From positions 1-63,198 of the forward strand of contig JAGTRB010000013.1 of the NCBI GenBank assembly GCA_018396865.1: DNA of 63,198 nt. The letters are read 5' to 3'. Origin of the DNA: Candidatus Bathyarchaeota archaeon (GTDB lineage: Archaea > Thermoproteota > Bathyarchaeia > TCS64). The position numbers and the translations under genes are program-made. Position 1 is the stretch's first letter, and each line of letters opens with the position of its first letter. The notes under the pieces were generated by a model, which worked only from the letters and a program-made list of their open reading frames with translations, was not told the DNA's origin and did not search any database. This document shows, piece by piece, positions 28,202 through 32,890 of this stretch.

Positions 28202-29128
28202 GTGAGGGGATATCCCATGCCAGTACTCTGCAGCAGATGTAGGGGTACACCTGCTGAGGTGAGAGTTGCAGCGGGAAGATTGAGGCTTTGCCCTGACTGT
28301 TTCGTAGGATATTTCGAAGAGAGGCTTATGAAGACGGTTCAAGAGTTTAAGATGTTCAGGCTTGGTGAGAGGTTAGCCGTCGCAGTTTCAGGGGGTAAGG
28401 ATAGCGGGGCTCTACTACACGCTCTGAGGAGGGTATACCCCGACCTTCAACTCTTAGCTCTGCACATAAACCTCGGTATAAAGGGCTACTCCGACCACTG
28501 CGAGGAGAAGGTGAAGAGGCTTGCTGATATGGAGGGGGCTGAGCTAAGGGTCTTGAGGATAAAGGAGATGGGCTTCACAATGGATGATTTCATCAAGACG
28601 ATCTATAGGAGGCGAATCTGCTCCCCATGCGGCGTCATTAAGAGGCACCTGCTAGACTCTATGGCCCTAGAATCTGGCGTGAAGACCCTCGCCACGGGGC
28701 ATAACCTCGACGATGTGGTCTCAACCATGTTGGAGACCTTCTTCGCGGGAGACCTAGCCCAACTCATAAGGTTGAGGCCGGTTCTTCCCCCGAGGCATCC
28801 CAGACAAACCAATAAGATAAAGCCCCTCATTAGACTGAGCGAGTTCGAGGACTACATGTACGCCCTCTACACAGAGATCCCCATAAGGGCTGAGAGCTGC
28901 CCCCACTCCCCATCCATAAAGAAGGGGAGAGAGGTTCTTGAGGCGCTGGGGAAAGGGCATCCGGGCTTTAGGTATCAGGCCCTCTCACTCTTCCTCAATA
29001 AGCTCATACCCATTCTCGAGAAAGAGATAACCCAACCTGAGCTTAAGACATGCAAAAGGTGTGGCTTCCCAAGCTCGGAAGATATATGCGCCTACTGTAA
29101 AAGGGTGGATTTGGTGAGGAGGAAGTGA
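28202..29128 (+). CDS. ttuA: TtuA/TtcA-type tRNA thiolation enzyme
   Basis: Adenylates and thiolates a tRNA uridine, by homology 2-thiolation of U54 (or of U34 for the Ncs6 branch). 308 residues: N-terminal zinc site C10/C13/C30/C33, PP-loop SGGKDS at 63-68, the [4Fe-4S] cysteines C140 and C143 (RICSPCG) with C233 as third ligand, and a C-terminal zinc site C284/C287/C296/C299. This Cys plan is that of TtuA. The last bases overlap the next gene by 4. GTG at 28202; ATG at 28217 is an alternative. Confidence 0.88.
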   Translation: MRGYPMPVLCSRCRGTPAEVRVAAGRLRLCPDCFVGYFEERLMKTVQEFKMFRLGERLAVAVSGGKDSGALLHALRRVYPDLQLLALHINLGIKGYSDHCEEKVKRLADMEGAELRVLRIKEMGFTMDDFIKTIYRRRICSPCGVIKRHLLDSMALESGVKTLATGHNLDDVVSTMLETFFAGDLAQLIRLRPVLPPRHPRQTNKIKPLIRLSEFEDYMYALYTEIPIRAESCPHSPSIKKGREVLEALGKGHPGFRYQALSLFLNKLIPILEKEITQPELKTCKRCGFPSSEDICAYCKRVDLVRRK

Positions 29129-29640
29129 GAGAGCTTGGGTTTGTTGCTGTAGCTCACTGCATCCTTAACCAGTCTACTAGGTGGTGGAATGATGAAAAAG
29201 GCAGCGAGCCCGCTAAAGGATGCCTCTGGAGGGTCGTTAAGAGGCTGGATGAGCTCGGGTTCGGCGCCTACCAGCTTCCATGCCCCGAGATAACCTTCCT
29301 AGGAAACCCCAGGCCATCCATGACGAGGGAAGATTACGAGGGGTTGAGCGGCTATGAGGAGCATGTTGAAAGGCTCTCGATAGATACCATCTCCGGAATA
29401 GAGACCCTTATAAGAATGAGTAATAGGCCGAGACTCAAACTGTTGGGGTTGATCGGGCTTGCTAGATCTCCAAGTTGTGCGGCCGAGGAGATCAGACCCG
29501 GCTCCAAGCCTAGGGGGATCTTCTTCGAGGCCCTATCTAAAGAGCTGAAGAGGAGAGGAATAGAGACTCGAGTCTTAGAAGTCGATATAAAAGACCTGGA
29601 CAACACTCTCAGTAGGCTGGATGAATTAGTAAGTCTATAA
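29125..29640 (+). CDS. TudS-related putative desulfidase (DUF523-like)
   Basis: 171 residues. Three cysteines sit in the places expected for a [4Fe-4S] cluster of TudS-type thiouracil desulfidases: C12 in VAHCILNQ, C53 in QLPCPEITFLG and C118 in LARSPSCAAEE. In TudS the fourth iron is open and accepts sulfide from 2-thiouracil. I assign the family from these motifs by memory, without a search. It overlaps ttuA by 4 bases (start in GTGA at 29125), so the tRNA thiolase and this protein are made together. It could remove sulfur from, or recycle sulfur for, thiolated nucleotides. Confidence 0.7.
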   Translation: MRELGFVAVAHCILNQSTRWWNDEKGSEPAKGCLWRVVKRLDELGFGAYQLPCPEITFLGNPRPSMTREDYEGLSGYEEHVERLSIDTISGIETLIRMSNRPRLKLLGLIGLARSPSCAAEEIRPGSKPRGIFFEALSKELKRRGIETRVLEVDIKDLDNTLSRLDELVSL

Positions 29641-31827: not shown

Positions 31828-31906
31828 TGGTGCTCCGGCCGGGATTTGAACCCGGGATCTCAGGCTCGAGAGGCCCGCATCCTTAACCGGACTAGACGAC
31901 CGGAGC
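31828..31906 (-). tRNA. tRNA-Glu(CUC), CCA encoded
   Basis: Read on the minus strand from 31906. The acceptor GCTCCGG pairs with CCGGAGC, the discriminator is A at 31831, and CCA is encoded at 31830-31828. The anticodon stem CGGGC/GCCTG (one G-T pair) holds the loop CTCTCGA, giving anticodon CUC. The T-loop is TTCAAAT with a CCGGG/CCCGG stem. No intron. An in-window GltX would charge it. Confidence 0.95.
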
Positions 31907-31990: not shown

Positions 31991-32890
31991 TTAGAGATCT
32001 GTTCTTAGTTTTAGGATGTTCGCTATGTTGGCTTTTTCGTCGATTATTGGCTTTATCTTCCCGTTTCTCGATGTGAAGAGTGCTGTTACTCCAGGGCCAT
32101 GGCCCGAGATGACGCAGTTTGTGTGGACAACTATACCCACGGTGACCGAGCCTTTCCTGTAGATACGCCCGTAGCTGTTATCGGCATCCATTATCGCTAC
32201 CAGGTCTCCGAGGCGGAGGTCCTCTAGGCCATACTCCTTTACTGTTCCCTCGTCGAACATGGTTATGTCGTAATCGCCTGAGGCTACATGGCTCGATCCT
32301 AGGCCAGACCCCATTATGGCCGCGGGGACTAGGTGGGTCACTGGGACCTCTAGATAGCCATCCACCATCCTCGGGTTTAGGGCCTCGAGGAATCCGGGAT
32401 CCATGTTGAAGACCTTAACCTCGGGGAGGTCTTTGATCTGAAGGCCCACCCCATAGGCCTTGATCATCACCTTGTCCTCTATAACCAGCTTCTCCATAAC
32501 CTCAGGCTGGAAGTCAACCATCACGTGCTCTATACCTCCATGTTTCCCGACGACCACACCCTTCTCCCCCTTCGCATTCCCCGACACCACTATAGCCTCA
32601 TTCCCTATGCAGCTGAGGACGTTCAGGGCCCTGCTCTGGCCTTGGGGGTAACGCTGATCCGAGACCCTGTTCTCGAGGCTTACTCCTGGCTCTACGTGGT
32701 CTGCCATCCAACCGCAGGCCGGGTCTCCAACCCTCACATTGTATGTTATGCCCCCGACCCCCGGAAGGATGACTGGCTCGCCCTCCGCGGAGATCTTATA
32801 GACCTCTGCCCCGACCACCGGGCTCACTACCTCTCCGATTACGGAGATCTTGACCAACCTATCCCTATTCGTCTTTAACATCGTAATCAA
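31991..32890 (-). CDS. DUF4438 family protein
   Basis: 299 residues of a conserved but uncharacterised family found in thermophilic bacteria and archaea; I recognise the GVGGITYNVRVGDPACGWMADHVEPG start, HGGIEHVMVDF, and GSGLGSSHVASGDYDI with IMDADNSYGRIY and HTNCVISGHGPGVTAL. The conserved Cys, His and Asp residues in these blocks look like a metal or catalytic site, but no reaction is known to me. It is transcribed alone, between the tRNA-Glu gene and the thermosome. Confidence 0.75.
   Translation of the reverse strand: MITMLKTNRDRLVKISVIGEVVSPVVGAEVYKISAEGEPVILPGVGGITYNVRVGDPACGWMADHVEPGVSLENRVSDQRYPQGQSRALNVLSCIGNEAIVVSGNAKGEKGVVVGKHGGIEHVMVDFQPEVMEKLVIEDKVMIKAYGVGLQIKDLPEVKVFNMDPGFLEALNPRMVDGYLEVPVTHLVPAAIMGSGLGSSHVASGDYDITMFDEGTVKEYGLEDLRLGDLVAIMDADNSYGRIYRKGSVTVGIVVHTNCVISGHGPGVTALFTSRNGKIKPIIDEKANIANILKLRTDL

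Follow-up and report, generated by a model that had tools for sequence, protein, structure and literature searches.

Why should a gene for a tRNA thiolase, which inserts sulfur, overlap a gene for a putative sulfur-removing enzyme? This question is raised by two genes of Candidatus Bathyarchaeota archaeon (GCA_018396865.1, contig JAGTRB010000013.1, positions 1-63,198; this whole stretch of 63,198 nucleotides was analysed and will be referred to as the window). They form a conserved operon in which a sulfur-inserting enzyme is combined with one of the [4Fe-5S] type that putatively removes sulfur, encoding two small proteins that could be co-produced in E. coli. Both the sulfur supply of archaeal cluster-type tRNA thiolases and the fate of thiolated nucleotides after tRNA decay are poorly known. 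The layout of the pair is given in Table 1, in which the coordinates of the initial annotation and its 4-base overlap were recovered.

Table 1. Features of the overlapping gene pair in the window.
Feature	Position	Strand	Basis
TtuA-family PP-loop tRNA thiolase, 308 aa	28202..29128	+	motifs, NCBIfam NF049949, PDB 5mko
TudS-related (CD3072-type) putative [4Fe-4S] desulfidase, 171 aa	29125..29640	+	NF045597, PF04463, residues at TudS positions
GTGA overlap of 4 bases, stop codon of the thiolase gene overlapped by the start codon of its partner	29125..29128	+	sequence
GAGGAGG purine run, possibly ribosome-binding, at short spacing from the second start codon	29116..29122	+	sequence, inference

The TtuA-type thiolase

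The first gene had been read as encoding a TtuA-type enzyme with the cluster cysteines C140, C143 and C233, and profiles, motifs and the match to the solved TtuA PH0300 (PDB 5mko; 8.7e-53) all agree with this reading. The NCBIfam model NF049949 (TtuA of Pyrococcus) was clearly the best family (1.8e-60, 204.6 bits), the score staying below the equivalog cut-off of 450 bits, so that the protein lies outside the curated Pyrococcus equivalog; the NcsA model matched more weakly (5e-34). The P-loop motif SGGKDS (residues 63-68) was invariant in all seven paired proteins described below, as were the three cluster cysteines (CxxC plus distal Cys), which are also present in the NcsA paralogue, and two zinc-finger quartets, C10/13/30/33 and C284/287/296/299. 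C100 is the one further cysteine. An in-frame ATG at codon 6 (28217) might be the true start.

The superfamily is represented in the window's genome by this TtuA and one other member, an NcsA located elsewhere (216.5 bits to the NcsA model). In a midpoint-rooted tree the window TtuA stood apart from this NcsA, and the long PH0300 branch was placed elsewhere. The NcsA gene adjoins two genes for small proteins of the ThiS/Urm1 type with a terminal GG, which likely serve NcsA as sulfur carriers (contig C17, L025:1474-3081). On a further contig of the same genome (C15, L120:952-1995), a ThiI-like PP-loop protein is fused to an NFACT-R RNA-binding domain, with several cysteines, and is a candidate for a further tRNA thiolase.

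The only tRNA gene of the window, a tRNA-Glu (CTC, 31828-31906), encodes the T loop TTCAAAT, i.e., U54 is present in the gene; it is adjoined by a gene for a DUF4438 protein on the minus strand (31991-32890). TrmY was detected in none of the seven genomes carrying the pair, with positive search controls, which makes s2U54, known from Sulfolobus (PMC7912444), a likelier product of TtuA than m1s4Psi54. The latter, which would have suited the preference of TudS for 4-thio substrates, was dropped for this reason.

The small protein is related to TudS

All paired small proteins had a single match in the NCBIfam search, NF045597 ("CD3072 family TudS-related putative desulfidase"). The window protein scored 88.7 bits (2.8e-25), which does not reach the cut-off of 130 bits, and the other pairs 99-116 bits; a relative linked to a LarE gene (L016) obtained 131.5 bits. 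Pfam PF04463 (2-thiour_desulf) matched the window protein at 6.6e-06 and 26.6 bits, below the gathering cut-off of 34.7, and was matched by 39 of 45 aligned family members at E<=0.01. A profile of the small protein aligned by hhalign with TudS plus RudS of related archaea (96.8%, E 2.4e-10) with the cysteines in register, and, when the comparison was restricted to stand-alone TudS, at 82.3% and E 1e-05. Pfam detected no DUF1722 domain in the 171 residues, and sequence searches of the PDB with the protein or its profile returned no TudS and one chance match.

An AlphaFold model of the window protein (pLDDT 88.7) has its core secondary-structure elements in the same order as TudS. In Foldseek, no 6Z9x entry was among the 50 best matches listed for this model, the best of any kind having an E value of 0.014, whereas the control, a modelled canonical TudS (L172), found 6z96 with E 2.5e-15 and TM 0.83. 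The membership in the TudS/DUF523 family thus stands as far as the profile matches go, but not at the level of family cut-offs or of a Foldseek match to crystallised TudS. Since the scores are below the cut-offs and only the canonical control matches that structure, we use "TudS-related" rather than "TudS"; judged by profiles and model, the small protein is a CD3072-type relative and not a canonical TudS.

In TudS, the residues Cys10, Cys43, Cys104, Glu45, Ser101 and Ser103 are employed, with docking adding roles for Arg17 (phosphate binding), Tyr18 (base stacking) and Pro102 (PMC10611767). Their counterparts in the profile alignment are C12, C53, C118, E55, S115, S117, R19, W20 and P116, so that R19 occupies the position of Arg17 and W20 that of Tyr18. 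The proposal that three cysteines are placed as in TudS therefore proved correct and extends to the catalytic Glu and Ser positions. All of these residues are kept in the seven paired proteins except S117, which is replaced by Asn in two of them; the fourth cysteine of the window protein, C33, is not conserved.

Distribution and inheritance of the pair

The initial annotation had left room for an adjacency peculiar to this genome. Instead, TtuA and the TudS-related gene were found in the same order and on the same strand in seven species of two archaeal classes: three members of the window's genus within the Bathyarchaeia (the window, G001 and G002) and four Nitrososphaeria (L022 and L023 and their relatives L111 and L112). 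The pair is rare, occurring in 3 of the 257 genomes searched in the window's class, all of the window's genus, and in 4 of 151 in the group around L022; most TtuA genes of related archaea have no TudS-like neighbour. The genes share 4 bases in the window as well as in L022 and L023, and L111 and L112 have an overlap of 17 bases; for the genus-mates G001 and G002 the start of the second gene is ambiguous, the candidates being an ATT located at the overlap and a GTG that follows 18 bases later. Three gene neighbourhoods surround the pair, namely lysA and an ABC exporter in the window, CofG/CofH, creatininase and RibD-like genes in L022/L023, and topoisomerase and HAD hydrolase genes in L111/L112.

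The seven paired TtuA proteins formed one clade, as did the seven paired TudS-like proteins (98% SH-aLRT for either clade); both trees, which are quick trees without bootstrap, show identical sets of three subgroups. Other bathyarchaeial TtuA proteins fell outside the paired clade, which fits either joint transfer or differential loss. Paired TtuA had dN/dS values of 0.05-0.17, and the small gene of 0.11-0.27. Conserved gene order and strand in seven species with differing flanks, together with the low dN/dS, argue that the pairing is more than chance. Each gene forms a single clade that matches that of its partner and is under purifying selection, so that the two have been inherited together as a unit. 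The genes, their conserved residues and linkage, the joint inheritance and the selection are thus directly established. Gene overlap and joint inheritance further suggest, at the level of sequence, that thiolase and small protein belong to a common sulfur pathway. A fusion of the two families, which had been envisaged, was not seen; in L007 the TudS-like match lies in a frame of 540 aa, which is probably a spurious upstream extension, as a gene on the opposite strand covers the same stretch.

Neighbours of the TudS-related proteins

Among about 76 distinct TudS-like sequences surveyed, a PP-loop protein was encoded next door in four settings: the TtuA pair, LarE in G032/G038, LarE in G625 and a PP-loop protein in G045. 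Every one of these partners carries the CxxC plus distal cysteine, and the two LarE settings are located apart from each other in the TudS-like tree. In a check by motif, none of 20 canonical TudS/RudS loci had a PP-loop neighbour. The chance of such a neighbour for a random gene is about 0.5% if a genome has ~1,900 genes and about five of this kind, a rough estimate without computed control, and the TtuA setting was found by specifically searching for it.

In G032 (L016:600-1962) and G038 (L017:1498-2875), the TudS-related gene lies behind a three-cysteine LarE gene (303-309 bits to the LarE model), and its product has Ile or Leu at the position of the phosphate-binding Arg of TudS. The order is reversed in G625 (L124:1480-3015; LarE with 296 bits), and in G624, a relative and fourth member of the G625 group, the neighbour is LarA, the nickel-dependent racemase (L123:1465-3340); these neighbours provide a link to nickel-pincer cofactor synthesis. 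In G045 (L014:416-1998), the TudS-related gene is located directly 3' of a gene for a PP-loop protein without Pfam family, with C221, C224 and C297, which is possibly an undescribed cluster-type sulfur insertase.

Other archaeal TudS-related genes (L034, L036, L032, L038 and L052) lie beside genes for dihydroorotate dehydrogenase electron transfer (PyrD/PyrK) or overlap a ribose-1-phosphate kinase-like gene. On Enterococcus and Cetobacterium plasmids (L113, L114, L188 and L189), the CD3072 TudS-related gene pairs with the S component of a CD3073 ECF transporter, the selenocysteine genes selA and selB being located just upstream in Enterococcus. Ubiquitin-like carriers were not found near the paired TtuA genes.

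Possible functions of the gene pair

Our preferred explanation, which we put forward tentatively and on the basis of sequence comparison, is that the two genes form a unit of a U54 2-thiolase, TtuA, and a CD3072-type desulfidase that would take sulfur off thiolated mononucleotides derived from tRNA turnover. TtuA would activate the base with ATP, followed by attack of the sulfide that its cluster carries on an open iron. In the small protein, C12, C53 and C118 would hold the cluster, and a thiolated pyrimidine mononucleotide, most likely one freed by the decay of thiolated tRNA, would bind to the open iron through its thiocarbonyl sulfur. Water might then attack the carbon with the assistance of E55 and S115, yielding plain UMP and sulfide. 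Desulfuration could thereby keep thio-UTP out of new RNA, and the sulfur would return to the pool used by TtuA. Cluster, activity and substrate of the small protein, as well as any benefit to TtuA, are what we infer here.

Several lines of evidence favour this nucleotide salvage. The small protein matches TudS in profile and residues, and TudS desulfurates mononucleotides but not tRNA, the sulfide being retained on the cluster (PMC10611767). R19 and W20, at the positions involved in phosphate binding and base stacking, are kept in every paired protein. Relatives lie beside PyrD/PyrK and ribose-1-phosphate kinase genes, which are nucleotide salvage contexts, and in bacteria they accompany an ECF uptake component. 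The overlap with TtuA is conserved and the two genes descend jointly, and the absence of TrmY from the pair genomes is counted in favour, as m1s4Psi54 is then not expected. The weak point is the substrate: the TudS enzymes characterised so far have a preference for 4-thio compounds and did not bind 2-thiouridine specifically, while the base produced by TtuA is a 2-thio one. Salvage alone also leaves the pairing of relatives with LarE unexplained, and the sub-threshold family scores, the model without a TudS crystal match and the many solitary TtuA genes of related archaea speak against it.

The association with LarE might instead be explained by a hand-over of sulfide, in which the cluster of the small protein takes sulfur from a thio-compound and passes it to the open iron of TtuA, replacing or supplementing ubiquitin-like carriers. 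Relatives adjoin three kinds of PP-loop protein with CxxC and distal Cys (TtuA, LarE at two places in the tree and the unnamed one), LarE of the [4Fe-4S] type and TtuA share a sulfide-on-cluster mechanism (PMC9283937), and in the window's genome the two ThiS/Urm1-type carriers flank NcsA, whereas the TudS-like gene flanks TtuA. We nevertheless regard a hand-over as unlikely, as Pyrococcus TtuA works with free sulfide and Thermotoga LarE used cysteine desulfurase rather than added sulfide (PMC9283937), and as many TtuA genes manage without a TudS-like partner.

The two genes might also merely be co-regulated, or the one might hitch-hike with the other, as two anaerobic Fe-S proteins with separate jobs (e.g., desulfuration of environmental thio-compounds) and no common pathway. 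The bacterial CD3072 proteins, which accompany an ECF uptake component and not tRNA genes, and the rarity of the pair in its class speak for this. Against it stand the persistence of the pair in two archaeal classes and three neighbourhoods, the agreement of the two trees, and the repeated occurrence of relatives beside cluster-type PP-loop sulfur insertases, and this explanation, too, appears doubtful to us.

More broadly, CD3072-type proteins could be general sulfur-handling partners of three-cysteine [4Fe-4S] PP-loop insertases (TtuA, LarE and one or more unnamed proteins). They would either deliver sulfide, taken from a thio-compound or thio-intermediate, to the partner's cluster or clear it from there. 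We consider this quite improbable; if true, it would represent a relay of sulfur between clusters that differs from persulfide and ubiquitin-like carriers. The recurrence of the pairing with LarE would widen the question from tRNA to cofactor synthesis.

Least likely of all is a writer and eraser couple, in which the small protein, given access to tRNA by TtuA or its operon, would strip the added sulfur from U54 and lower thiolation on demand, e.g., at lower temperature: thiolation of T54 in Thermus does track temperature (PMC7912444) and the TudS-domain enzyme RudS removes s4U from tRNA, but RudS needs its fused DUF1722 (PMC11417400), the small protein has neither this nor any other extra RNA-binding domain, stand-alone TudS was inactive on tRNA in vitro and in vivo (PMC10611767), and the LarE pairing would again be unexplained.

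An undescribed sulfide hand-over or tRNA sulfur salvage system had been suspected from the sequence. Salvage of thionucleotides by TudS (PMC10611767) and removal of s4U from tRNA by RudS (PMC11417400) have already been published, but we found no paper in the open-access literature describing a TtuA-TudS or LarE-TudS gene pair. Within the searchable literature, the coupling of a TudS-related protein to TtuA and LarE therefore appears to be what is new here.

Comparison with known systems

The [4Fe-5S] chemistry common to TudS, RudS, TtuA and cluster-type LarE has been published (PMC8584467; PMC9283937). With the TtuA of Pyrococcus horikoshii (PH0300) and of Thermus, the window thiolase shares the PP-loop, three cluster cysteines, N- and C-terminal zinc fingers and a full-length alignment; it differs from the known tRNA-5-methyluridine54 2-sulfurtransferases in scoring below the equivalog cut-off and in overlapping a TudS-related gene. 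The small protein has in common with TudS, the DUF523 desulfidase of 2- and 4-thiouracil and 4-thio-UMP (PDB 6Z92-6Z96), the three cysteines, a Glu two residues after the second Cys, the Ser-Pro-x-Cys motif and an Arg seven residues after the first Cys; in contrast, it has a His before and an Asn three residues after the first Cys, and Trp in place of Tyr18. Bacterial members of the CD3072 family (NF045597) pair with the CD3073 ECF component, whereas those of the window type pair with TtuA. RudS, the tRNA s4U desulfidase consisting of TudS and DUF1722, shares the TudS-type active-site residues and the tie to tRNA thiolation, but the small protein lacks its DUF1722. Finally, relatives of the small protein adjoin [4Fe-4S]-dependent LarE with CxxC and distal Cys in three bathyarchaeial genomes; unlike TtuA, LarE acts on the nickel-pincer precursor and not on tRNA.
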